A stretch of 64,000 nt of DNA, taken from assembly GCA_947652605.1 (NCBI GenBank), contig OX393580.1, forward strand, positions 19,674,159 to 19,738,158. Reading direction: 5' to 3'. This DNA comes from Elmis aenea (lineage: Eukaryota > Arthropoda > Insecta > Coleoptera > Elmidae). Below are positions 3,557-52,100 of the stretch, piece by piece; the stretch's first letter is position 1; every line of letters begins with the position of its first letter. The notes under the pieces were generated by a model. The model was not told the origin of the DNA. It saw only the letters and a program-made list of their open reading frames with translations, and did not search any database. A program made the position numbers and the translations under genes.

Positions 3557-6500
3557 CTACGTATTTGGTTCATTGTGTTGATGATCCGAGCCTGGAGCGC
3601 TCACGGCGTTTGGATGTGCGTATTCTACCGTGGCTTGAAAACCGTAAATCGGATCTGCTGTGTAACGAACAATACGAATTATGCCATCTTCTTGTAAAAC
3701 GCTATATTCGCCGTGGACTGTGTCTCCGTTTCTTGACTCGTGGCGACTTTGAGCGTTCCCTGTGTGCGGATCTTGGATACCGTAGGAGTATGAGTAGTCT
3801 GGCTTAGCCTAGAAAAAGAGCTAAAAATTATTAAAATGTCTTTCGAGTATAACAAAAATTGTAGTACACTCAGGTCTTCGTATTCGCGAGGCTTGTTTTT
3901 TATGTATCGTTCGGTAGTTCATTGATACTGAACATGAGGCCCTTCTTCAAATTATTCTAAAAAGTCATTACTTTCTAGACCCTTTAGACTTTTGTTGGCC
4001 ACCATAAAAACACAAAACCGCGAATAAATATCCCGCAAATATGGAGACCCGATTGTAAAATTAGGATTTGATCACTCTTTAGTGCAAATATTGAAGTATC
4101 TAGGGCTCTTCTTCTGATGGTAAACATTTTATTCTACAGTGTGAGCCATTTTAAAGCGGATCGCCCCTATAAAAAGTTTATTTATAGACCAACTTTTTTT
4201 TAAACGATAAAGCATCAAAAACTGTACTTTGGCACCCTATTTGAAAATTCAATTTACACTCACAAAGCCTACTATGATTTTTTTTCTATGTCAAAATTGG
4301 CAAAATTTGTTTAGCGATTTTTAATCTATAATCTAACTACACCACTGGATTCATGATGCCCTTAAATGAGTTTGTACCAAATTTCATAAAAAAATATTTA
4401 TTATTTGTCTTGTAAATTTAGTGGTTCGCCCACCGAAAATTCAATCAAAGTTGCGATTTTAATACTGATACGAATTAATTGTTGCTTATTTAAGAGATCT
4501 TACGTCAATTTTTTTATGCCAACTCCAACTTTTAATTTGTACATAGCATAGAACACTGCGTTGCCAATTTAATCACAAATATTGAATTAATAATTAATCT
4601 CTTAATAATAAATACTTTTTCATGAAATTTAGTACAAACCCATTTAAGGGCATCCCGAATCCAGTGCTGTAGTCAGATTATAGATTAAAAAATCGCTAAA
4701 CCAATTTTGACATTGAAAAACATCATAGTAGCATTTGTGAGTGTAAACTGAATTTTAAAATAGGGTGCCAAAGTACAGTTTTTGATGCTTTATCGTTTGA
4801 AAACAAAGTTTATTAAAATCAGACCATAAATAAACTTTTTATAGGAGTGATCCGCTTTAAAATGGGTCACACTGTATACTAACCACTTTATAACTCTTTA
4901 TCAATTTCCTAACTCCAAATTCCTTAAGTGGTTTAAATAAAACACACTGTATGCATCAAAGCTGTATCAATAAATAGTATAACAAAATGTACTTACTACA
5001 TAATCTACTTGTTGATGCTTTGGGTTTCGACCAGGAACGAAGACCTGTTGTATTTCTCCACTAACTGGACCACTAAATTTGTAATATGAATAACTTCCAT
5101 CTTGGGCCATCGTCAAAAAATGGCATATGTTGAACAGCTAAACATAAACAATTAATAAACATCTTTTAAAAAATGTTTACCTAAAAAAACTGACAGAGAT
5201 ATAAAAGTTTAAAAACTGGTATATTCTCTTTAAGACGTGATTCTTTTAAGTATAAAATAATTGCCCTTTGTTTAGACTTTTGTTTATTTACATTTAAAAT
5301 GCATCACTTGTATAATTCAGTCATTTATCTTTAAAATAAATGTTTAGATCACTTTTTTTGCTAAACATTGAACTACAAAGAAAATATTTTCATAGTTAGG
5401 TTCAGATATCAGTTTTTGCTTTGCTAACTAGATTTAGTTATAAGCTTTATTAAACAATTAAAGTTTCGTATCATTTTTTCGGTATTATTACTTTATATCA
5501 TTATAAAAACTGCACAATTCAATGTAAGTAACAATAACTGCATGTTTAGTAGAAGCGCATTAGGATTTTTAAATGCTTTTAACATTATATAAACAAGTCA
5601 AATCGAATACCGAAAGCTAAATTGAGTAGAAACCAAATTATTGTCAGTCTGCATTCAACAAATTAAATACCAACCGCAATTGTTAGCAAATTTAATGGTT
5701 AAGTAAGCATTACAGCATTAAAACGTTTTGCAAATAGGTTAACACTAATTTGTTGTGGTTTGTCTCTTCATTTTAGAAAATTAGTTTTGTTAATTTTCAA
5801 GTCTTTTGTCTGATACACTTTTACAAATATATTATTTCCTTAATCGATTATCCTTACTACAAAGAAAATGATAATGTTTCTTTAGCATTTTGTAGATATG
5901 TCTAAAAATGCTAAATTAATGATAAGTTATGTAAATTTATCGTAATTCGCCATTAAATTGTTTGTTGACGTTGCAAATATTTACATAAACTCCCTCACAA
6001 TAAAAAAATTACGTAAAATTACCCGCTGATTTATAATTTATTTTATAATGCAAAATTTTATGCAACGTTGATTACAGAAATTAGTTTTTAGAATTACAAA
6101 TATATTTTTCAATTAAGTTGCATACCGCGGAATTTTTAACCCGTCTAAAAAACAAAACTGAAATGCACAATATTTTGAAATACTTTAAAAGTTAGTTTTC
6201 AATTTCTATATTGATCGTTAAATAAATATTTTAAGCTGTTTGTTTAATCAACAAATCGCTCATCTTATTCATTGTGTTTTTCAACTTTTTCAATTCCTAA
6301 AAAGTTTCACAGTTTTGCGCTGAACAATTTTTTTTATTGACGAATCAGGAAAACACAAAAAATACTAGGAGTGATTTTTTAATTAAAACACTCAGCAACA
6401 TGAATAACTTAAATTAACCCAACTTTTACAAACCATTATAATTATAAACAAGTTTAATTCAAAATCACTCGTCTTATTTGTAAAAAAAAAAAACATTTTA

Positions 6501-9500
6501 AAGAATTTATGTACCAGTTCGACACTCTTATCCTTCGTCATTAGATAATTATGCTTATTTGTTGCTCAGAAACAAGATTATTTATAAAATAATTTATTGG
6601 CGAAGAGATGAGATTCTCGTAACTGTTAAAGATTTTCTTCAGACGCGATTCTTGTTAAATTAGTTGAGATAAGTAATTTTTTAGCTAAGGTAATTCAAAC
6701 ATTCCCCAAACTATTATTACTTTTAGTACAGTCAAAAAACTCGTATGACAAAAATAATCAAACAATGTTATAATTAACAAATATCATTGCAGAACCAATT
6801 GAAACTTATTTTTAAATATTCAGTAATCTATTTTCACATAATTATGCAATAAGTATTTCTGCTTACACCTCTATCATTTTCCTACATTATTCTTGTGTTT
6901 TTCCTAAACCTCGTTCATTCAGTCACATATTTTTCTTTTTTTATTATGTTTATCATTACTTCGTGCACCAATGCTACTTATCATGTTCATCAAAGCTATA
7001 ATTTAGGGCCTCATCCTCAAAAGACCCTTACTCACCCATGCACAGAGAAAAACTTTTGACTTCCCGAAATTATTTCCATTACAAAAATAACCTAGTTATA
7101 TTAAACGATTAAAAATTTAACGACACTCAACAATATTTTATGGAAAATATACAAAAATCTTTGCTTAGAGTCCAGGTGTTAAGCACCCATTTTGTGTAAT
7201 TCGTTGTTGATATAATTTAATAACTTTTGGCATATTGTTCATAGGTTTTTAAAAATGTCTACGCTTTATTTAGATTTTACAGACTAACCTTTTTTCAATT
7301 AAAATAAATTCATTTTATTATAATTATAAAATTAAAACCATGCAAGGATATTTAAGCCTAGCAGGACCTTCGTAAAATTGGGATAGTATTTGATTGTTGC
7401 AGCTTTGTACAGCTTTCTTATGATATATTTGACTCTCCCAATAACCAACAGTGCCTAGGTTTAACCAATTTTCAAAACTGTTATTGATTAAAAACTAATT
7501 TCTAGAATATGTGGGGATGAATAGACTAAAACTTCTTTAAAATTAGTCGATTAAAAGTATATTTTTTAAAACTTCAAATCATTAAACTTTACTCCAAACC
7601 AGAGCAAGAACCGGTTTTTTAAAACCCTGTAAAATACCGGTTAACCGTTATTTTTGTACGTAGAAGTGATTTTTAACCGAAACCGTCATTTTTAATAGCA
7701 AAAAACGGTAACCTTTAACCAATATAATGAAATACCGGTGTTTTAACAACTTTTCTTAATAAAAATTAATTTAAAAAAATAGAGAAACTGTATTAAATGC
7801 GATTAGTTTACCAGAAGTAATAACTGAACACTTGATTGTATCATACATACAGGGTGTCACACAAAAAACGCCGCTAGCTGTAACTCTGTTGTTTGTGGTC
7901 CGATTTTGATGAACAAAAAAGTAAATGAAATGGCTCCTTAAATACTATATACTGAATTGGATTTCACTTTTTTTCAAGTTCAACTTAAATGTCAAACGAC
8001 AGTCAATTTTTTTTTCAAATGGCACCATCAATTTTTTTAAACTAATTCTGATAGACATTTTTTTCTAAATTCAATGATGTAATTAATACCACACTGACAT
8101 TTAAATGACATTTGTTGATTAAGATTTTTTTTGTTTTCCACGGCACGCTTGAAAATTTTGTGAAACCTAACTTATTTCTGTTAAACTTTTATTTTTTATT
8201 TCTTATTAGTTTTGCACTAAAATCGACTTATTATTACATCATTGAATTTAGAAAAAAAATGTCTATCAGAATTAGTTTAAAAAAAATAGATGGTGCCATT
8301 TGAAAACTATCGTTCCACATTTAAGTTGAACTTGAAAAAAAATTAAATCCAATTCATTTTATAGTATTTGAAGAGCCATTTCATTTACTTTTTTGTTCAT
8401 CAAAATCGGACCACAAACAACGGAGTTACAGCTTGCGGCGTTTTTTGTGTGACCCTTTATATTGTAAAATTATAAATAGATAATATCTTTTCATACTTTG
8501 CATTCTTAACCTACATATTGTCAAAACCGGGTTAAAACCGATTTGAAAGTTAAATCGGTTTTTTACGGAAAACCGAGACAAATACCGTTATAAAAATAAA
8601 GTTCTTGATTTCGGTTAACCGTTAACCAAATTTTCTTTGTTTCGAGCCCTGCTCAAAACATAAACGGATTTATCTAAAAAGTTTAGTTTAATAAAAATTG
8701 GTTTTTTTATCTATACTGTGCAAAAGAAGCCATTTTGGGCAATTACTGTTTTGCATTTAAAATATACAATATGATTTTTTGCCTTTTATTTCATTTTGGA
8801 GAGTTTATAATCATTAAAATTCCTGTTTCTTTTCAAAAATTACTTATTTTATTTGCTAGTAGAATATGTTTTTAAGGAATATCTTTACAAATTTTTACAC
8901 TAATGTCTCTTTCTAATTTATTTATTTAAAAATTCGTTTTTTAACTTTAAAGTGCATTTGTAAAGAAGCCTAATTAAAAATAGTGGATCTTCTTATAAAA
9001 AATCTCTTGTTCAAATGATAAATTGATTTTTAACTCCCCATCAGTAGCTTAAAAACTGCTGATGAAGAGGCCAGAGTATGGTCTAACATTTTCACAAGAT
9101 CCTTCATTTAAAAAGCTTGAGTGATTCTTAATTAAACTTACTTACGTTACATTAATAAATTACTTAAATAATTCAAGCTTTTAATATGTATTTATTTATA
9201 TTAATAACAAATCACTAAAACAATTATTGAAACATTTATCAAATATTAACTTGATCATATAATCCTTTGAGGCCTTAAAAATAATGTTTTGCCTCTTGCT
9301 ATCCACATAACCAAAATACTTGATCATATCTTGTTATACTTGGTAAATCTGCAACTATATGTTGCAAAGACTGGTATTTTATACGCACTTCACAAACATT
9401 TGAAAAAAACTTGATCGTTTTAAATCTAAGAATGTTTTTTAAAATGCTAACGATGCATTTTTGCAGTCTTTATCATTTTTATTTTTTTGTAGTCTCAAAA

Positions 9501-27040: not shown

Positions 27041-28478
27041 ATGGGAAATTCTAATAGCGTCGACATCCCTGGTGGAGGTACGGAGGGCTATCACGTACTG
27101 CGGGTATGTATCAAACGTCAAGTAATTTTTTTTTTCTACATAATTCTCGCCATAGGTGCAAGATAATTCACCGGGCAGTAGGGCAGGGTTACAAGCATTT
27201 TTTGACTTTATCATTGCAATTAATGGGACAAGGCTTGATCAGGATAATGAAACTTTAAAGCAAGTTTTACGTAATGGAATAGGTAATAATTGGTGTAAGT
27301 AATTAAAATGGCAGTTTGAGTATGTTGTTTTTTTTTCAGGTAAACAATTACCTATGACGGTGTACAGCAGCAAAACTCAGAGTGTACGTAGTGTTAACAT
27401 TGAACCTAGTGAAGAATGGGGTGGTCAAGGTTTGTTAGGTGTTAGTATTCGTTTTTGTTCCTTTGAAGGTGCAAACGAAAATGTTTGGCATGTATTAGAA
27501 ACTCATCCAAGCTCGCCCGCTGACCTAGCTGGCCTTCATTCTTTCACTGACTATATTATCGGTGCCGATTCAGTGCTTCATGAAAGTGAAGACCTATTTG
27601 CGTTAATTGAGACACATGAAGGCCGCAGTTTAAAATTATATGTGTACAACAGTTTGGAAGATTCATGTAGAGAAGTAACGATCACTCCCCATAGAGGTTG
27701 GGGAGGAGAGGGAAGCTTAGGTTGCGGAATTGGCTATGGATATTTACACCGTATACCAGTTCGAGGTTCTCCACCACCCAGTACTTTGAATATGGGGTCG
27801 TTCCATACAAAGGAGCCAAACATCAATACTACTACAAAAAGTGTTGATACAAATTCGTTTGTGTCTTCCGTTAATAACGTACCCCCGTTTGTATCATCAG
27901 TTAATGATGTACCAGTAATGTCGTCTGCATCTCCAGTTCCAAGTACTGACCAGGCAACGCTCCATACAGCATTTTCTGCGATACCTTCTAGCACAGTATT
28001 TTCTCATGCCAACGACCCCATGATATCGGCAGGAACTACTATGTCATCGCAGATGTATAATCCAACATATCCTAGCGCATTTTCAAACCCGACGAATAAT
28101 TCTTCACCGTACACTGGCTCAAATTTATATACAATGCCTTTTCCAATGTCCGCTACAACCACGAATATGCAACCAAACGCTTCAATTCCGGCTTATAACC
28201 CGTACTCAATGCATAGTTCACCAGTTCCGGGGTACACCGTATCCCCAACTGTTCCTTCTACAACATACATGCCAAACGTAACCACTACGCAGCTAGATAA
28301 GTCACCTAACACATTTAATCTCCAGTATTCAATATCTCCAATGTCCCAGGAAAGTCCGTTAATTAATACCACGACCAGTTCAGAAATTGTCAACACGGCA
28401 CCTTTAATATTTGATCCAACTATCGCGGCCAGATCGGCGCAACAGTTATTATCAGGCACGGAAACTACGACTAGTTAA
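27041..28478 (+). CDS. Grasp65: Golgi reassembly stacking protein (GRASP55/65 family), three exons
   Basis: Exons 27041-27103, 27156-27282 and 27340-28478 give 442 aa. GRASP proteins tether Golgi cisternae and help unconventional secretion. The start [13 protein letters not shown] gives a Gly2 myristoylation site. Two PDZ-like GRASP repeats follow: [17 protein letters not shown] to NTH-type [10 protein letters not shown], then [13 protein letters not shown] and [17 protein letters not shown] to [20 protein letters not shown] (about residues 15-205). The remaining 240 residues are Ser/Thr/Pro/Asn-rich and low in charge, as in the regulatory SPR tail that is phosphorylated in mitosis in vertebrates. 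Insects have one gene for the two vertebrate paralogues. The start is fixed by the conserved N-terminus and by the GTATGT donor after codon 21. Confidence 0.96.
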
Positions 28479-35543: not shown

Positions 35544-35552
35544 TTTATTACC

Positions 35553-36035
35553 ATGCCGGAACATACACCTGCACCCACTCCAAGCCGAGCCGTTTACGGC
35601 TTTGCGTTTTATTTAACTTTGAAGATGGTTTTTATATTGTACGTAGTGTGGGCCATAGTACCAGCAGCTTGGTTTGAACAAATCGGAATTGGACTCCCAC
35701 AACGATATTGGGCTGTTACTATACCAGTGTTTCTATTAACTGTCCTCGCAACGTTTGCGTTTATTATATATCCCAGCATAAATTTGTGTTTGACCCCCAA
35801 TATCGATGATTTGCGAACGATTCGTGACGATTTTAAAGTGAACGATAAGAACACCAACGTGACTTTGTTGCTTAATGAGCGCAGAAATGTTATCAACGAT
35901 TGTAGTTGTAGAAATAAAGCTAAATGTAAAAAAAAAGAGTACGAAGATGCCAGTCGTATTCAAGTTACAAAATTTGGATTTTCTGTTGAAGACATGGATA
36001 TGACAAAAGTATCAAAACTTTTATATGCAAAATAA
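35553..36035 (+). CDS. PIG-P: GPI-GlcNAc transferase subunit PIG-P
   Basis: A single-exon 160-aa frame. PIG-P is a small ER membrane subunit of the complex that starts GPI-anchor synthesis by moving GlcNAc to phosphatidylinositol. Two hydrophobic segments (about 13-35 and 50-74) with the signature SRAVYGFAFYL, WAIVPAAWFEQIGIGLPQRYWAV and a PNIDDLRTIRDDF tail define the family. There is no separate promoter or acceptor between this ATG and the Pcc1 stop, so it is probably the second cistron of a shared mRNA. The ATG context is ACC-ATG-C. The stop codon lies inside an AATAAA signal. Confidence 0.93.
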   Translation: MPEHTPAPTPSRAVYGFAFYLTLKMVFILYVVWAIVPAAWFEQIGIGLPQRYWAVTIPVFLLTVLATFAFIIYPSINLCLTPNIDDLRTIRDDFKVNDKNTNVTLLLNERRNVINDCSCRNKAKCKKKEYEDASRIQVTKFGFSVEDMDMTKVSKLLYAK

Positions 36036-36387: not shown

Positions 36388-39300
36388 ATGCAAGGAACGA
36401 AAAAGTTAGTGCCAATTTACCCGTGTTTAAGTCCAGTAAACATTTTCTTTGCAGATTCTTACGACAGACAAGTGTACTAGAAGAAAATTTAAATATAGAT
36501 CAATTTTTAAAGATATCTAATTATGAAGAGACAGTACGACAACTGGATATATATTATGGAATTGGTAAAGTAAAACCTTGCATTTTGCACTTATTGGGTG
36601 TAAGTGTTAATTTTTAAACTTTCAGTCAAAAGACAGTTGTTACGGTATCAAAGCCCTATAACTGGGTTATTTCCTGTTTTATCAACAGACCATGAAGTAG
36701 GAAGCGTCCGAGAAAGTGTTTATTGTGCAGCAGCTGTATGGGGATTATACCAATCATATAGGTTCGTGGTTAATGTGTATAATTTTTAGAAAAGTTGAAT
36801 TATTTTGTGTGTAGGAGAATCGATGATGATCGAGGAAAATCATACGAATTAGGCCAGTCCGCAGTGAAATGCATGCGGGGAATTTTAGAGTCCTGGATTA
36901 AACAAGCAGCAAGGATAGAACTGTTCAAAAAGAATCAATGCAACGCACACGCTCTGCACGTGAAGTTTCATATGACCACGGGAGCCGAAGTTTACAGCGA
37001 TGAAGAATATCACCATCTACAAATTGATGTCGTTTCCATTTATTTAATTTTCTTGGTTCAGATGATATCGTCAGGGCTACAGATAATTTACACGCAGGTA
37101 AGGAATATTAAATTAAGCATGATTTAAACCATTTGAACACTTGCTATTATCTTTTCAGGATGAAGTTGCCTTTGTTCAAAATCTGGTTTATTATGTAGAG
37201 CGTGCTTATCGTACACCTGATTATGGAATGTGGGAGAGGGGAAGCAAGTACAATGACGGAACACCAGAGATTCATGCTAGCTCTATTGGTATGGCAAAGT
37301 CTGCTCTGGAGGCGATTAACGGTTGTAACCTGTTCGGTGAGAAAGGAGCTTCATGGAGCGTGGTTTATGTCGACATAGATGCACACAATAGAAATCGGAG
37401 CATCTTCGAAACTATGTTACCTCGTGAATCATCATCTAAGGTTTGTTTATTAATGATCTTTAAATCCATTTTCAAATTAACTTGAATCATTGTGTAAATA
37501 AATGAAACAATTAAAAAGCTGGTTTTATATTTCTTTTCTAGCTCTCTCGTTCTGTATTGTATTTTTTTTTTTTTTACAGGCAGTTGATGTAGCATTACTG
37601 GCAACCATTTCTTTCCCCGCTTTCGCATCGCACGAAGATGTGCTGTACAACGAGACGAAAAATAAAATAATTCGTAAATTAAAAGGCAATTGCGGATTCA
37701 AACGGTATGCCAGAGATGGATTTAAAACTGTTGTAGAAGAACCTAAGAGGAGGTACAATGTGTTTCTGTTGGTTTTCTGCGTTAAAAAATTAGTCATTTA
37801 ATTAATTATACAGTAAGAGAATCAATACTTTTATTTGTTTTCTGCTGATTGATTTTTTCGATGCTTCGCATTAACTTATCGATCAGTGATAATTTCTAGG
37901 TATTACGAAATAGGAGAGATACGAAATTTCGAAAGCATCGAGTGTGAATGGCCCTTGTTCTACATTTTCATGATAATCGACGGCGTTTTCAAGTCGCTAC
38001 CGGATCAAATAACCGAATACCAAGAACTGCTCAAAGCCAGGATGTTAGTAGATCTCCACGGAGGTACAATTCACAAATAGAATTCCATTAAGTATACCTT
38101 TTGCCTTTTGTTTTTAGATCCAATCATTCCAATGTATTATTACGTGTCGAAGGATGACCTCCAACATGAAAGGTACGAACCGAATTCGACGACCAGGACG
38201 GCTAGCTCGGAAGGCGGCCTGTATCTGTGGAATCAGGCCATGTTCGTTTTGGCGCAGCTGCTCACGGCCGGGTTGCTTCATATCAACGAACTTGATCCTA
38301 TACGACGGTACCTGCCTTCGTATAATAGGCCCAGGAAAGGGGGGAGGTATTCGGCTTTTCAGGTAATATTTTTTTAAATTTAATTTTTGACGAGATATGT
38401 ACGTGATTTCGGTCATTTAAATTTGCCTGCCGTTTGCTTGATCTACATTTTTATCGGGTAAAAATCTAAAATTAACATTTCATTGTTGTGTAAAATTGTG
38501 TTACACTGGTGAATTCTGCTAAACTACGTCTCGCACATTTTTTAATTTAAATTAACAGTCGATAACTAATTGGTGCTTCACGCTTTTACACACAGAGAGT
38601 CCACCTAGTGTGTATTTTGTTTACTGCCTAACTTGGGGACTTGTGTCAAGTACTCATATTAAACAAGGCCCGATTACACAAAACAGTCAAGTATTAATTC
38701 CTAAAACTAGGCAACATTTCAGCACAGTTGACTCTAATAATGCCTATTTTTAGCGATTAACATGTATGTTAATATCAGCGTTTGCTTTGTCCAATCGGGC
38801 CTAAATGTTTTAAAACATTTAACAACACATTCATGAACAAACGTTAGTGACTACATTTAAACTAATAAAATTTTGTATTGTTCCATGTTGCTACAGGCGA
38901 AACCGTCTGTTGTAAGTAACGCCAACATTGCACAGTAGTTGATAGGTGCTTTTCGTTGTTGCTTTCTGTCACATCATTATTATGCGTTGCTTTTTTTTTT
39001 TCTATGTCATTTGTCATTCATTGTCAATTGTCGTCAATGCAATTAGGGCCGGCATAAAATATGTATAGAGTGTAGTCCACAAACAAGACTTGTAACTTCT
39101 TTATTCAACACTGGATTTCTATTTTTGACTTAAACTTTAGCCAAAAACAATATAATGTTTGTATTATTAAAATTTGTAGGTACTTCTTTATTTTGAAAAG
39201 TTGTAATCACGTTTTACAAATTTATGATTTTTTTTCTGAATTTAGAACCAATGTGTTTTAAAAAACTTTTAATAAGAAGTTGTCATTATAAAATATACAG

Positions 39301-42300
39301 GGTTCTCGTTTTTCGAGGGCCACTATGGGGATCTCGTAAACGGTAAGAGTTATGACTTCGGTTAAATTAGGGCAAAGTTGTATATTTAGGTGCTTAATAA
39401 TTTGCCGCAAACAGAACTTATCTAGCTTTTTTAGTTTTTGAGATATAGGGGAAAAAGTAAAAAAGTGGACTTTTGTTTTTTGCTCGTAACTTTTTCATTT
39501 GATGTCGAATTTCATTTCTGTGAAAACTTTTCCATGGCCACTTTTTGCAAGGAATCAAAATCCCCAATTATATTTTCCATGCGACGTTTCGTTTTTTTAA
39601 AACCATCATCAGGTCAATTTTTTCTTATAGACGCTATATCTGATTTTAACGCTAATTTTTAGAGCATTTTATTCTGAATTCGACAATGTATAAAACTTGG
39701 CACTTGTTTAAAACAATTGTTGCTAAAATGGCAAAAACAAATATTTTATTTTGAAAAATTCCTAATCGGCATGGTAATCAATTATTTTTGTCCCTTTTTC
39801 CTTCGAAGCAGGTAAGTAAACCGCATGAAATTACTATTAAAGGGATTAAGTTATAAAGATTTAACACAAAACAAAAATAGGTAGGATTTATTTATTTATT
39901 GAAGGGAAAAAAGCTGTGCAATCCATGCACGGTCGTCACCCAACCAAGAACTAACTTAACTTATCAAACGAACGCATTGGTTACATTTTACATCTTCAGC
40001 GAGTTATGCCCTTTATCTTTACAATAAGTAAACAGATTTTTTGACGTTTTTTAAAAACTATGAAAACTTATATTTGGTTACGAAAATTCTGTTGCACATT
40101 TTTGTATGTCAAATAAGGGATTATAAATGTATTAGTGTATTTTATTACTTAACTGAGGAAAATATTCTAAAAATATTTGCTAATAAGTAAACAATGTTAA
40201 TGCATTCCTAAGATATTTATTAATACCTATTTTTCTTAACGAAATGACAATTTTGTTCCATACAAAATGTTTATTGTGTAATTAAGCCTTTTCTATATTA
40301 CCATGAAACAGATAAGGTGGCTATATTTTGTGACATTTAAAAAAAAAAAAAAAGTGCGTGAAACATCAAAACGGCTTGTGTATGGTCTAAACTTTAGACT
40401 ATACACAAAATAATGTCAAAATTGAAATAAGAAAACTAGTCATCACGAAGTTTCGATCGCACTGTACGTGCGCGCCCGCACGTGGTATTTTGTGGAAGAG
40501 CCACACTCAAGGGGCCAAAGAGCCGCATGTGGCTCGCGAGCCGGGGTTTGCCGACCACTGGTTTACACTGCTGGCATTGTATAACATATTTTGTCATCAT
40601 TGTTCAAATCTTTAAAATGTATACAAACGAAGATATGATTAAAATAGTTTATGCTAATTATCCCAATGCAGACGTAGCATTAAGAAATTATGAGGAAACC
40701 TATCCAGAATGACAGCAGCCTAATAGAATTTATTTTAAAAAACTGGATCAAAACTTATACTTTATTTGGCATATGAGAATGTGCAACAAAATTTTCGTAA
40801 CCTAATATAAGTTTTCATAGCTTTTAAAGAACGTCCAAAAATCTGTTTACTTATTAGAAGCCATTAACGCAGATAAAGGGCATAACTCGCTGAAGATGTA
40901 AGATGTAACCAATGCATTCGTCTGACAAGGTAAGTTAGTTCTTGGTTGGTTGACCGTGCATGGATTGCACAGCTGTTTTATTCCCTTCAATAAATAAATA
41001 AATACCTAACTATTTTTGTTTTGTGTTAAATCTTTAACTTAATCCCTTTAATAGTAATTTCATGCGGTTTACTTACCTGCTTCGAAGGAAAAAGGGACAA
41101 AAATAATTGATTACCATGCCAATTAGGAATTTTTCAAAATAAAATATTTGTTTTTGCCATTTTAGCAACAATTGTTTCAAACAAGTGCCAAGTGTTATAC
41201 ATTGTCGAATTCAGAATAAAATGCTCTACAAATTGGCGTTAAAATCAGATATAGCGTCTATAAGAAAAAATTGACCTAGTCATGGTTTTAAAAAAACGAA
41301 ACGTTGCATGGAAAATATAATTGGAGATTTTAATTCCTTGCAAAAAGTGGCCATGAAAAAGTTTTCACAGAAACGAAATTTGTCATCAAATGAAAAAGTT
41401 ATGGGCAAAAAACAAAAGTCCACTTTTTTACTTTTTCCCCTATATCTCAAAAACTAAAAAAGCTAGATAAGTTCTGTTTGTGCTAAATTATTAATCACCT
41501 GAATATACAACTTTGCCTTAATTTAACCGAAGTTGTAACTCTTACCGTTTACGAGATCCCTATAGTGGCCCTCGAAAAACAAGAACCCTGTATAATTAAT
41601 ATCTGAATGTTTTTACCAAAGTTTAATGCAAAAATCCATAAAAAAGAAAGACTGGTTTGATTTGAACCACTCTGTATATATTTAGAACTTCGAATGCAAA
41701 GATTGTAATTCGTTTTTTGAGAAGTCTTTTACTAGAATTAAATCTGGTCCTGAAAGCAATTTTCATTTATTTTCATAAAATTAATGGTACACCTTTAAAA
41801 TATTACTACTGCACATAAAAATGCATGTTCTGGTACTATCGCTTTTTTCTTTCAAATAGTTATGTCTAATGTTAGTTACTTCTATTTTGCAAGTTTTTGA
41901 AGTCTCACCACGCTTTTAAAATTCGATTGTAACTCGCATCTTAATTTGTTGTTACTGTACAGGGCATTGCGACCGACCTTGTCGTTCAAATTGTTCTGAT
42001 TGCCGAATCGATGCGTCTGCAAGCGATGATGGCGACTTATGGGATCCAGACGCAAACTCCCCATGAAGTTGAACCTGTCCAGATTTGGTCGTCGTCCCAG
42101 TTGGTCAGAGTGTACGAAAATCTGGGGATAAACTATAAGTTGGGCTTGCACGGAAGGCCTTCGAGACCGGTTGGCAGCTTGGGCACAAGCAAGGTAACTG
42201 GGTTAAAAAAAAAATTGCTTGTAAATTCCGAGAACTGATTGTATGCGATTAAAAAATAAATTGGCATTGGATACATTTTTTTTGCAGGTTTACAGAGTCT

Positions 42301-45300
42301 GTGGCATGACCGTCTTGTGTTATCCTCTCATATTCGAAGTCTCCGATTTCTATCTATATCGAGACATGGCTCTTTTAATAGATGACATCAAAACGGAACT
42401 GCAGTTTGTCGGTCGATATTGGCGATTGTCGGGGAGGCCCACTGTGTGTTTGCTGATAAGAGAGGAGCACATGAGGGACCCGCAGTTTAAAAAGATGTTG
42501 GACTTGCTCGCCATGCTGAAAAAGGGATATTGTGATGGGGTTAAGGTTCGAATCGGTAGATTGCAGAATCTGATTTCCAGTTCGTGTGTAGGTGAGTTGA
42601 AAAACTTTTTTAATTCTCCAGAAAAAAAATTTGCAGTGTTTCAGTTTTTGATGGAATTTTTTTTAAATTGAAATTTGAGCAAATTTAGAATCAAAAATGT
42701 TCTCGTGGCAGTTACTTGAGTTTAACAAATTTTTATTTTTTCTGTTATGTTTTTCACTTTCTCTTAGCCAACTGAAGATAAATAATTCTTGTTCAGTGTG
42801 TAAACGGTGTGCGTATGAAGTTTAAATTCAATTGCTTTAGTTTAAATAATATCCTGAAAAATTTATCAAGAGTTTAGTGTTTTCCCTTTCCAGTTTGGAA
42901 TAGATACAATTTTTTTGTCCGATTTTATATGTATAGTTATTATTTTATGTACCTTAAATCCCGAACAATTTTTAAAATTAATTTTGCTTATATTACAGAA
43001 CATTTGGACTTCATGAACATCATCGATTTTCCCTGCCAAACTTTTACTCAGTTCAAACAACTCGAACATGATTATATTGGATATCAAAGTTTAACCGATG
43101 TACCTAGAGTCGTCCACTGTCAAGAAGAACTTCAAAGCTATGCCGTAAGTTTTTTAAAGTGGTTGTTGTTAATGTGTTTCACTGCTTCAAAACCATGAAT
43201 GATTTCACAAAAAGATATGAACAAAATGTCGAAGCTGGGAAACAGTAAAATCGTTTTTGTATCTAATTAATACGTTGCTCATTTTTTCAGCATTTTAAAA
43301 ATAAGCCTACTCACGACATAGTAGACGAAATCCGTCACAACGAAAGTTTATACGCACGTTGCCAGCTCTTCGGCTTGCTGCTAAAACGTGAAGGTTCCAA
43401 TTTCAAAGTCCTCAATCATACGGTACAAGAGCATCTACAACAGCTGTACCATCAGGCGGGTTGCGTGCGACACTGGGCAGCTGTACGGTACACCAGCAGT
43501 ATGTTACTCCACAACGTCGATTCCATCAGTCCTTTCATCACCGCCGTACTGGTCCACGGTAAACAGTTAACGGTGGGAGTGATCGGCCAGAAGGAGACCG
43601 TTTTCGATAAACCGATGACGCCTCTAGAAATACAATCCGTTGTCTATAACACCATACAACCGTACGATGTGATTCAAGCCGTTCTTCAACAAGAAGTGAT
43701 TTTGTATTGCGGTCGGCTCATATCGACCAATCCGGAATTGTTTAGAGGAATTTTGAAGATTAGAATTGGTTGGGTGGTCGAAGCTATTAGGATATATTTG
43801 AAGATGCAGGGCAGCGACAAGCAGTTAGAAGATCACAGCCCATTCGAACTAAGGCATCTTCTGTACAAAGTGTTATCCATTAAAGACTGGGCCACTCAAG
43901 AACAGTAAGTTATCAATATGGGAACCGTGAACGAAAAACTCGTTCAAGGTTCCTCATGCAATGTAATTTAATCTCTGTCGTTTGTTTCATATAAACACAG
44001 TTGCGTTTGTTTCAGATTAACACAGTTGCGTTTGTTTCAGATTAACACAGTTGCGTTTGTTTCAGATTAACACAGTTGCGCTGGTTTCAGATTAACACAG
44101 TTGCGTTTGTTTCAGATTAACACAGTTGCGTTTGTTTCAGATTAACACAGTTGCGTTTGTTTCAGATTAACACGGTTGCGTTTGTTTCAGATTAACACAG
44201 TTGCGTTTGTTTCAGATTAACACGGTTGCGTTTGTTTCAGATTAACACGGTTGCGTTTGTTTCAGATTAACACGGTTGCGTTTGTTTCAGATTAACACGG
44301 TTGCGTTTGTTTCAGATTAACACGGTTGCGTTTGTTTCAGATTAACACAGTTGCGTTTGTTTCAGATTAACACAGTTGCGTTTGTTTCAGATTAACACAG
44401 TTGCGTTTGTTTCAGATTAACACGGTTGCGTTTGTTTCAGATTAACACGGTTGCGTTTGTTTCAGATTAACACGGTTGCGTTTGTTTCAGATTAACACAG
44501 TTGCGTTTGTTTCAGATTACCACAGTTGCGTTTGTTTCAGATTAACACAGTTGCGTTTGTTTCAGATTAACACGGTTGCGTTTGTTTCAGATTAACACGG
44601 TTGCGTTTGTTTCAGATTAACACAGTTGCGTTTGTTTCAGATTAACACGGTTGCGTTTGTTTCAGATTAACACGGTTGCGTTTGTTTCAGATTAACACAG
44701 TTGCGTTTGTTTCAGATTAACACAGTTGCGTTTGTTTCAGATTAACACGGTTGCGTTTGTTTCAGATTAACACGGTTGCGTTTGTCTCAGATTAACACGG
44801 TTGCGTTTGTTTCAGATTAACACAGTTGCGTTTGTTTCAGATTAACACGGTTGCGTTTGTTTCAGATTAACACGGTTGCGTTTGTTTCAGATTAAAACGG
44901 CTGCGTTTGTTTCAGATTAACACAGTTGCGGTTGTTTCAGATTAACACAGTTGCGTTTGTTTCAGATTAAGACAGTTGCGTTTGTTCAAATTAACACAGT
45001 TGTGTTTGTTTCAGATTAACACCGTTGCAAAGGCGACAGCTGGAAGGCTGTTTGTGTAGAGTTCCTTCGTCGTTTTACAATCAAGTGTGGGACGTGATGA
45101 CACGAACCCCGGAAGGAATTATCGTCATGGGAAATACCATACCACAACATCCTACACTTTCCAACATGACTAGATCGGAAATTACTTTCGCTTTGCTCGT
45201 CGAACAGGTAAAAAATTGTAGTTAACTTTAAACGTTGCTCCTAATAACCAGTTAATTCTATATGTGTATAAAATTTTAAGGCATTAACTAACATGTAGTT

Positions 45301-45685
45301 TTGTTTCTTTTAGATGCTTAATAGAATAAATATGCCCGAGTATCGACAGTTGATCGTTGAGCTGCTTTCAGTCGTGTCCACAATATTAGTAAGAAACCCC
45401 GAACTTAGTTTTAACCAACCTCTGGATTTGGAACAATTAATTAAAGATGCAGCGCTCATGTACGCAAAGGTAACTATACTGTAGTGACAATTAAAATTTG
45501 TAACATAACAACAAATTGAATTTTCTTAGGATAACAATTGTCATGACCAAAAAGTGTCCGACCTGTTCGCAACTCCTTATCTACAGTGTATGGGTTATTT
45601 GGCTCGAGCTGTCGTTAATAACGTCTTAAAAGGTGGCCAACTAAATGATATTGATAATGAATCTGAAACGTGTAAAGTGTCTTAA
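36388..45685 (+). CDS. PHKB: Phosphorylase b kinase regulatory subunit beta, 15 exons
   Basis: Exons: 36388-36404, 36455-36564, 36626-36761, 36815-37097, 37159-37440, 37580-37752, 37900-38063, 38118-38362, 41963-42193, 42288-42591, 42999-43144, 43291-43904, 45015-45207, 45314-45469, 45530-45685; 1069 codons in one frame. The beta subunit restrains the gamma kinase in the alpha-beta-gamma-delta holoenzyme that activates glycogen phosphorylase. Family blocks include [89 protein letters not shown] and LLKREGSNF. It is beta rather than alpha by its TYGIQTQTP and QHPTLSNMT blocks. The C-terminus is CKVS, a CaaX box like the farnesylated end of the mammalian subunit. Intron 8 holds a 2.3 kb transposon; intron 12 is a minisatellite. 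Confidence 0.95.
38897..38911 (+). other. Candidate 15-nt microexon in PHKB intron 8
   Basis: The sequence gcgaaaccgtctgtt is flanked by a good acceptor (tgttgctacag) and a good donor (gtaagtaac). It is phase 0 on both sides and would add A-K-P-S-V between exon 8 (ending AFQ) and exon 9 (starting GIATD). Confidence 0.4.
39298..41590. mobile_element. Long-TIR (foldback) DNA transposon in PHKB intron 8
   Basis: The outer ends CAGGGTTCTCGTTTTTCGAG and, reverse-complemented, CAGGGTTCTTGTTTTTCGAG are each flanked by TA. Left arm 39298 to about 40110 and right arm about 40760 to 41590 are inverted copies roughly 800 bp long. A loop of about 650 bp remains, containing a solo hAT-type end (near 40560, reverse complement CAGTGGTCGGCAAAC) and a 76-codon frame without family likeness. 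No intact transposase is visible. Confidence 0.85.
43981..45014 (+). repeat. 25-bp minisatellite built from the intron 12 3' splice site
   Basis: About 41 tandem units of the form attaacacRgttgcgtttgtttcag, R being a or g. Unit ends fall from 44015 to 45014 in steps of 25, with a single 1-nt loss near the right edge. The last 11 bases of each unit equal the end of the intron and the first 14 equal the start of exon 13 (attaacaccgttgc). Only about 76 bp at the 5' end of the intron is not repeat. One unit near the right end has lost its CAG. Confidence 0.97.
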
Positions 45686-47070: not shown

Positions 47071-47370
47071 CACATTCAAAAAGCAGGAACTGCAACATTC
47101 TTAACATATTGCACTGAATGTTTATGCACCCACCTTTAGATAAGATGTCCTTAATCTAGAACAAAAACATAATAGATATGAACAAGTAATAAAAACTCAG
47201 TGAGTGTTTTAGCGCAATTTTTTCACCTCATGGGTGAAGCATAAAGGAAAGACTTTTAATTAATTCTTTTTCTAATATTATTGTAAATTTTAGAAGCTAT
47301 CGATTGCAATTTGTTTCAACTCGATAGCTATTATGGTTGCCGAGAAATTTGCAAAAAACGGAATTTTGTA

Positions 47371-47669
47371 GGAATTTCCAGGAAATCCAAAATCTTTTCC
47401 TGGATTTTTTTTGTGCGTTCCCGAGATTAGACCTTCCTTAACATAATGCCGAAAACCCGAAGTCTCTAAGTGGTCTGGTTGAGGAGTAGTTAGAAGTGCA
47501 AGATTGGTGCGCACAGCAGACGCACAGAACAGAAATCATGAGTTTTTCCGAAATTTCCAGGAACTCCAAAATCTTTTTCTGGATTTTTTTTGTGCGTTCC
47601 CGAGATTAGACCTTCCTTAACATAATGCCGAAAATCCGAAGTCTCTAGGTGGTCTGGTTAAGGAGTAGA
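47371..47669. repeat. Direct duplication of about 120 bp, 180 bp apart
   Basis: 47371-47489 and 47551-47669 are nearly identical, sharing gtgcgttcccgagattagac, cataatgccgaaaa and gtctggttraggagtag. The DNA between them is less similar. It has no coding capacity. It may be two fragments of one repetitive element. Confidence 0.75.
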
Positions 47670-49191: not shown

Positions 49192-52100
49192 ATGAGCTAC
49201 AAGATTTATGATTATGGTATACTTGTGCAAAATGCACTTGTTAAAGATCGGAGTAAACCACCAAAACCACGCACCGTTTTATTTGGTACGATAGTAAAAG
49301 TCGATGGTGTTTTGGCGAATAATAAGTTTGCTGTAAGGTTTCTTAAGGACGATAGCGAAACATGGGAAGCAGCGTCATTTATATGTGACCAAAACGATGT
49401 TGTTTCTGTTGCCGAAAAGTGTTGGCCATATTTGGCTACCATTATATCTCCACAAGAAAGAGTTAAGCTCGCAAAAAATGAGGATCGTTGTCAACAGTTG
49501 ATGCAAGTGACTGAAGGATCAATTATTGGAGTTTCAGAAGTGGATAACGTGTATTTAGGTACAGTTAAATACATTGGAAATGTTAAGGGTATCGGCAAAT
49601 GTTTTGGATTACTTCTGCATGTGAGTACAATTAAAATAAGCTTTCATTAATATCGATTGATATTTTCATGTGTTATAGGAAAAGACACCTAATAATAGAT
49701 GTGATGGCACTTCTGCTGGTATTCGGTATTTTACCTGCGAACCAGGCTACGGTCTATTTGCCACGTTAGATCGTTTAACACCTTATCGTACATCAACCTT
49801 AAGGGCCCAGAAACTGACATTAAAAAGCGAGCTAGACGCTTGTATTGAAAAAAATGTATCCAGTATCAGTATTATGTCACAAACTAATGGATCCTCATCA
49901 AAATTCAAAGACGGTGGGAACTTGAACGTCATAAATCGAGGAAATTTTAATACCTACTTACAAAATTACAAAGACAGTGCAGCGGCAAGCTCTAATTCCA
50001 ACAGAAATACGTCGAACTTCCGTAGTTCGGTGTCCTTGCAGAATGTTCTAGATTCAAATAGTGATTTAAGTGTAAACACGACGAACGATTTCGATCAAAA
50101 CTCAATTCTACAACCAGATGAAACTTATCTAGTGCATGAGTCACACGGAAACAACGGATTAATCAGGCCCACATTGCATACTAACAAACACAAGTCTGAA
50201 GTCGACTTAATCGACGTGATCGGGGGTACATGGGCTGGTACGACCGACTCGAAGCATTTGGAATCATACTCAAATTTAAAGAAGCCGCTCAAACTAGAAC
50301 AAAACGATTTGATAAACAACTCGCAAAGAAATTTTCAATCGACTTTAAACAATATTATGTTAAAACCGCAACGGAACAAGAGTAGCAATTTAATTAATCA
50401 TATAATAAACGGCAGTAAAACGGTACCGAGGAAAAGTAAATTGCTGCAAGAAAGTTATGGTAACAAAGATGGTGGTCTGTGCCCTAACAAAACCTCCGAC
50501 ATCGATACAAGTATGTATGAATCTAAAATACTTTTTAGGCAACGTAATATATTAAAATTGTATCTATCTTTGGAACTACTGAAGTTTATTACATCCGTAA
50601 ATAATAATACTATCACAGAATTTTAATTTTGCCTTAAATTTGCATAGTTTTTTGTTTAAAATATATGTAGTTTTAAAGTTAACGAGATTTAAAAAACATG
50701 CTTATTGTTAGAAGACGATTTGTATTTTATGCTATTAAGGCTCATGAATTTGAATTAAAAGTCCAATGTTTTTGCTCTGATATAACCGAACAATCATAAA
50801 AATCGAGTTATTAATAAAAAAGATACAGCAATAATAAAGTGTCCAAAATGGTACACCGTGTAAATTAATATTTTTTCTGCAATATTAACAAAGCTGTAGA
50901 ATTAGCTTACCTTTTCATTTGAGTAATATACAGAGTATACTTTGCAGTTTTTGGAAACCATTTTTAGTTTTAAGTAATTTTCAAAAACATTTTTTTTACA
51001 ATTACTAAAAGTTTTGTGGTAAATGTAATGAATCAGTCTAAAGAAATTTCAATACTCGAAGTTAACAACACAGATTTTACTTTTCTCATTTTGTAGTTAA
51101 AAATAGCTGTGAGCTTGTAGGAAGTTTAAAGCTGTAACACTAACATTGCAGACTTTTTTTAGATTTCTATTTTTAAAATCTAATGCGAATGTTCTGTCTC
51201 TATTATCGAAACATGCTTTTTAATATGTGAAAGTTGAAAGTACATGTAAAATTACAAGTGCAGTTTGAAAAACGGTTACAGATGTGAAGTAAATAAAAAA
51301 AGTCACGGTTTGGTTAGTCTCGATTGTTTTTAAATTTTTGTCGCATTTATTTATTGGTTATGGCTCTTAATAACAGAAATAAAAATTTTTTGAGTTTGCA
51401 ATTGAACGTAAAGAACGTTCACAAGCCGAAATCGGCTTTGTACGATCATCCCGCGAACAAACTGAACGTGTACGGTTTTGATGACGATATCTACAACCAA
51501 ATTCCTTTATCTGTGTTAGAATTGAACAGAGCGAGTGAGCCCGTGCAGCTGTCGAGCTCGTTACCAAAGAATTTACCGGGCCCCCAAGTGGCCGAGCGCC
51601 AGTTGCAGTACGTTTCGCCCGAGCCCGGTACAACGAGCGACTTGACGGTCGGTTCACTGGTGGAGATATTAAACGACATTTCGGACGATCCGTTGTATGG
51701 TGTTATACGGTGGTTTGGCGTTGAAACTGTCTCCAAACACGTCCTGGTGGGGATCGAGCTGGAAGAGGAGCAGTCACATCTGCCGCTGACGCTCACGGAC
51801 GGGATCCACAACGGGCAGAGGTATTTCAAGTGTGCGGAGAAGAGGGGAATTTTCGTCCCGTTGAGTCAGTGTCATAGGGATTCGCGGTTTTTGGATGGTA
51901 CTCCAACACCAGTACAAAACGTAACGGATAAAATGTTTGGAAAGGTTAGTAGTCATAGTGAATGTCGGTCAGAGCCCCTGATTGGGGATGCAGTGGACAC
52001 GGGTCTACAAGCGAAGGTGACCCATAGGTAAGTGACCAGATTTTAGTTTTGGTAAGGCGGGACAAAATCGACTGGGGGATAAGAATGAGTAAAAAATGCA

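Follow-up and report, generated by a model that had tools for sequence, protein, structure and literature searches.

Minisatellites that extend over intron/exon boundaries are known from lancelets, where they are called mirages; examples lie in Adh3 and in the globin genes BflGb6 and BflGb9 (PMC3087553, PMC3902484), with further cases in troponin C and, less perfectly, in PGBD5 (PMC3902484). In the parts of these reports on which we draw, mirages are thought not to disturb regular splicing (PMC3087553; PMC3902484, largely citing the earlier cases), are unstable in length between alleles and also somatically (PMC3087553, PMC3902484), and in BflGb6 have a homogeneous centre and degenerate edges (PMC3087553). 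Here we describe an array of this kind in the beetle Elmis aenea, in intron 12 of the gene for the beta subunit of phosphorylase b kinase (PHKB), within a stretch of 64,000 nucleotides (assembly GCA_947652605.1, contig OX393580.1, positions 19,674,159 to 19,738,158, forward strand; hereafter the window). The kind is already known; what is new is the arthropod host, a compact unit that holds a complete acceptor, and the presence of 41 units. Judging from the sequence, we put at roughly 70% the probability that the array is a largely neutral mirage, tolerated because the last acceptor dominates.

Anatomy of the intron 12 array

Tandem Repeats Finder (TRF) reports a single strong array at 43979-45028 (period 25, 42.0 copies, 96% matches, score 1869). 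Walked in register with exon 13, the unit reads ATTAACAC(A/G)GTTGCGTTTGTTTCAG and lies across the boundary of intron 12 and exon 13: 14 bases copied from the exon 13 start, apart from a mismatch at the A/G site, are followed by sequence of the intron's 3' end. The exact unit ATTAACACGGTTGCGTTTGTTTCAG occurs in 17 units and the A-variant at the variable position in 16, and a core 19-mer, with up to three mismatches allowed, has 41 matches in the window against 0.05 expected. The parts of the locus are as follows.

43291..43904, + strand: PHKB exon 12, 614 nt, ending ...CAAGAACA, intron phase 2; placed by homology to 8jfk_B
43905-45014, + strand: intron 12 as a whole, 1110 bp
43905..43910, + strand: 5' splice site GTAAGT of intron 12; placed by sequence and frame check
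43905..43978, + strand: unique 5' part of intron 12, 74 bp, GC 0.365
43966-43990, + strand: unit 1, half of it unique sequence, ending in CAT
43979..43990, + strand: first partial copy, CGTTTGTTTCAT, now with CAT; putative ancestral 3' splice site
43991..44965, + strand: units 2-40, each 25 bp long and ending in CAG; TTAAC in 36 of these 39 (not in units 2, 23 and 38)
44966..44989, + strand: unit 41, 24 bp; acceptor lost (CAA), TTAAC changed to TTAAG
44990..45014, + strand: unit 42, with TTAAC, T-rich tract and CAG at 45012-45014, the acceptor for the full protein
44998..44999, + strand: inner AG, in frame, giving five extra residues; weak by the local matrix
45015..45207, + strand: exon 13, 193 nt, opening with ATTAACACCGTTGC, 14 bases that supply the unit's exonic portion and differ from it by a single mismatch, at the A/G site
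45208..45313, + strand: intron 13, 106 bp, AT-rich, GC 0.245

CAG ends 40 of the 41 units from 2 to 42 (2-40 and 42). TTAAC fits the branch-point pattern yTnAy, in the form given by an earlier note on this DNA (the original prediction), and its second A lies 20 nt 5' of the last base of CAG. That prediction had named a PHKB gene with an intron 12 of about 1.1 kb and a 25-bp repeat in about 41 copies, some 40 with an intact CAG, all of which agrees with our figures (1110 bp, TRF period 25, homology to 8jfk_B, 41 units, 40 CAG); the 76 bp that it set aside as unique shrink to 74. It had also taken each unit for a complete 3' splice site, and the anatomy is as it described, but TTAAC and CAG are kept together in 37 of 41 units rather than in all. 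The a/g variation does add or remove an inner AG, as predicted: 22 of the 41 units have the AG, and 19 have GG in its place. Only the last unit has TGTG before the T-rich tract; the others have TGCG (TGCGG in unit 39).

The copy number is that of the assembly, a single sequence. Along it the A/G states are clustered between neighbours (15 runs against 21.4 expected, one-sided p 0.03), which fits local duplication, and autocorrelation reveals no longer period. Changed units are concentrated at the edges (6 of 9, against 2 of 32 in the centre; Fisher p 0.0004, with the limits of edge and centre chosen post hoc).

Comparison with described systems

The PHKB array has the structural features of a mirage: a unit that spans an intron/exon boundary, splice signals in many units (CAG in 40 of 41, TTAAC in 37 of 41), and a concerted, uniform centre with excluded, degenerate edges. 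It differs in belonging to an arthropod rather than a cephalochordate, although cephalochordates are where the term was coined and not part of the structure. Its 41 units compare with 6 and 3 in BflGb6 haplotypes and 3 copies of the 108-bp PGBD5 repeat, and its 25-bp period with 10-72 bp in Adh3 and 150-160 bp in BflGb6, as given in the portions of the lancelet reports used here. Unlike those mirages, the PHKB unit compactly holds a branch-point-like site, a tract and an AG.

Intronic variable number tandem repeats (VNTRs), such as that of ABCA7 (PMC5954066), are likewise tandem repeats within an intron, with an effect on splicing in the case of ABCA7; the PHKB unit contains the acceptor of the exon that follows, a feature not seen for the ABCA7 VNTR in the part of that account drawn on. 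NAGNAG acceptors resemble the array in that several AGs compete for one exon; as summarized in the passages cited, those AGs lie a few nucleotides apart and are chosen at the second step after a shared first-step definition (PMC2875228, PMC9225289). The PHKB tract acceptors are 25 nt apart, and 37 of the 40 have a TTAAC of their own in place of one shared branch point.

Among the open-access papers that our literature searches listed, we found no boundary-spanning minisatellite from an insect, which is weak evidence of absence. An exact 23-mer of the unit has no match in viral_contigs or genome_contigs, and megablast of 43979-45207 against plasmids gave none either; the former hold viral, bacterial and archaeal records, and neither search has much bearing on insects. 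When PHKB-encoding contigs were sought, patterns matched 17 times in viral_contigs and 66 times in genome_contigs, but tblastn identified none of these as a relative.

The gene and the origin of the array

PHKB appears intact: 14 exons, numbered 2-15 to match the earlier numbering with exon 1 left unplaced, join into a reading of 1063 residues whose sole stop is terminal. The 364 residues around the array, as a translated stretch, match PDB chain 8jfk_B (a beta subunit; E 9.4e-86), and joining the GTAAGT donor at 43905 to the CAG acceptor at 45012-45014 yields the conserved PHKB reading. Identity reaches 82% among the 120 listed of 3347 relatives found, and the best named ones are beetles, at up to 81%; a quick tree of 60 of those 120 groups the protein with Agrilus, Photinus and the 82%-identical relative at a support of 94, under the tool's mark of 95. 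The other 12 introns located are 53-147 bp long in ten cases and 407 and 3600 bp in the remaining two. Within intron 8 (38363-41962) we observed a fold-back at 39287-41601, an element that may be mobile, whose inverted arms (39287-39875 and 41013-41601) are 589 nt long and 93% complementary, and which encloses additional inverted arms of 84 and 99 nt.

All 120 listed relatives align through the exon 12/13 junction, and in no case does an insert there reach five residues; six, all weevils, have two or three extra residues, and one has one fewer. The start of exon 13 is therefore probably old, and the array copied from it. On the left, unique intron sequence passes directly into CGTTTGTTTCAT, and on the right CAG abuts the true exon, as expected from a tandem duplication across the boundary. 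Subtracting 999 bp of extra copies leaves an intron of 111 bp or, should the original acceptor have been the CAT copy, of 86 bp, which suggests an ancestral intron 12 of about 86-111 bp.

A plausible course of events begins with a 25-bp tandem duplication that took in the end of intron 12 together with 14 bases of exon 13 and then grew to about 41 units, whether through unequal exchange or through slippage. The exon 13 start happens to contain TTAAC, so each copy provides the following unit with a branch-point-like site, 20 nt upstream of that unit's CAG. Most transcripts would then use the last acceptor, which alone stands beside the body of exon 13, at most 193 nt from the exon 13 donor. The repeats would be removed as intron, leaving the array near neutral, and some leakage to upstream acceptors would be lost as nonsense transcripts.

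Reading frames from the upstream acceptors

Between the donor and 45014 there are 65 AGs, 63 of which lead to a stop. All 39 upstream tract acceptors reach one: 37 stop at a TAA within the array (52 nt downstream in 36 cases, 127 nt in one), one at TAA 45017 and one at TAG 45057. The original prediction that splicing to any upstream unit introduces a stop is thus correct, and both of the stops that it named, an exon 13 TAG and a TAA in the array, occur, but the TAG serves only one acceptor. Its further statement that no CAG but the last yields the full protein is right for the 40 tract acceptors, of which 45012-45014 alone is open, but not for every AG: a second, weak one at 44998-44999 (exon from 45000) is also open and would insert five residues.

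Such closure could be read as a regulatory brake, the second possibility raised in the original prediction, in which the upstream acceptors would divert splicing to premature-stop transcripts degraded by nonsense-mediated decay and copy number would set PHKB output. However, 25 is not a multiple of three and the frame shifts with each copy, so that a single stop triplet in the unit is enough to close every frame; a stop turns up in 91% of unit shuffles and in 82% of 25-mers drawn at random from the locus once these are set in tandem. Closure is what most 25-bp arrays would display, which gives no sign of a designed brake, and it needs no selection.

Choice among the acceptors

An acceptor matrix was built from the 12 other PHKB acceptors (leave-one-out scores -1.4 to 14.3). 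On it the last tract acceptor reaches 9.5, while 18 of the remaining 39 reach 8.0, 17 reach 7.1 and four lie at 4.6-5.5; AGs outside the tract acceptors, including 44998-44999, all score -1.8 or less. Majority use of the last site is suggested by the conserved protein together with the lancelet reports, and the strong bias to that site raised in the original prediction fits the same intact protein and the conclusions drawn for lancelet mirages. The architecture may also be relevant, the full upstream intron being 1110 bp and the downstream one 106 bp: in human data, events in which a long intron precedes and a short one follows mimic exon definition, summed up, in the portion of the source used here, as favouring the sites closest across the exon (PMC9225289). 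Human competing 3' sites at least 20 nt apart are described there as defined for the most part at the first step, each with its own tract and branch point.

Several observations weigh against a dominant last acceptor and a neutral array. The score lead of the last site is slight, with 35 of the 39 others at 7.1-8.0, and lies within the noise of a matrix of 12 acceptors, so that local sequence could hardly make the choice and position presumably must. Splicing to the first unit acceptor would give an intron of 111 nt, the size that PHKB mostly uses. The same human survey, as far as the part cited goes, reports an upstream preference of 3' sites overall, strong with intron definition and reduced with exon definition (PMC9225289), and in a designed human library, from an account likewise consulted in part, two acceptors of equal strength show no positional preference (PMC6783452). 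Lastly, among units 2-41 the CAG is lost only in unit 41, which adjoins the true site, and neutrality leaves this unaccounted for. Given a long upstream intron and yet a 111-nt intron to the first acceptor, intron and exon definition predict opposite ends of the array, and upstream acceptors may be used.

Alternative explanations

The regulatory brake draws on several of these same points: 39 of 39 upstream tract acceptors reach a stop, 35 of them fall at most 2.4 bits short of the last, the first acceptor gives an intron of the PHKB-favoured size, and human 3' sites show the overall upstream preference noted above. Against these stand the expected closure and the description of lancelet mirages, in the parts cited, as not interfering with splicing (PMC3087553, PMC3902484), and we regard a brake as unlikely. 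A related proposal makes the array a copy-number dial on a metabolic gene, with about forty near-identical 3' sites set against one productive site, leakage growing with copies, and selection protecting the productive site. That the nearest rival, unit 41, is the sole CAG loss among units 2-41 and that the last unit alone has TGTG both bear on this, and we hold the dial to be about as unlikely as the brake.

It is less probable still that the units act as a decoy platform, binding U2AF and the U2 small nuclear ribonucleoprotein without being spliced and so slowing intron 12 removal (intron retention) and delaying expression. TTAAC with CAG in 37 of 41 units would suit such binding, but the proposal is conjectural throughout, and the RNA folds of two pieces, 44891-45110 and 44116-44315, show no structure beyond that of shuffled sequences (z -0.36 and 0.56).

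An assembly artefact, either in the array or in its copy number, has a precedent in one lancelet mirage that was aberrantly assembled in a genome draft, according to the section of the report cited (PMC3087553). The A/G variants without a longer period along the array, the distinct edge units and the intact coding sequence on both flanks argue against it, and we think it very unlikely. Least credible is the making of new introns and exons, with units recruited as exons and the intervening repeats as introns, a model proposed for lancelet globin mirages in the part of PMC3087553 drawn on, since the 14 placed exons include no unit-derived exon besides exon 13 and, judged by eye, GT in the consensus unit occurs as GTTG or GTTT, unlike the usual donor form.

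Taken as a whole, what the original prediction observed is confirmed and its interpretation is partly supported, and a largely neutral mirage is the explanation that we favour.

Other features of the window

An open frame at 35544-36032, which precedes the located PHKB exons and shares their strand, has a PIG-P domain (104.9 bits). Downstream of the gene are two open frames that match CAP-Gly, at 49679-50623 (25.7 bits, just below the 26.5 cut-off) and 51318-52028 (50.8 bits), and that may be CYLD-like. Four more inverted-repeat pairs, with arms of 68-157 nt that are 85-92% complementary, lie at 4129-4882 and 7847-8462. A direct repeat of 129 nt (92% alike, copy starts 179 nt apart) occupies 47361-47668, and about two imperfect 30-bp copies (82% matches) lie at 27856-27913, where the period is divisible by three and the sequence, by eye, may be coding. 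A scan of the window against Rfam at gathering scores gave no match.

Significance

Forty near-identical acceptors of which one is productive constitute a natural experiment on spliceosome choice, in which the site nearest the donor, the site nearest the downstream exon and the site transcribed first are set against one another. Within the open-access literature that we searched, the PHKB array also extends boundary-spanning minisatellites beyond lancelets, which makes a wider search of genomes worthwhile.
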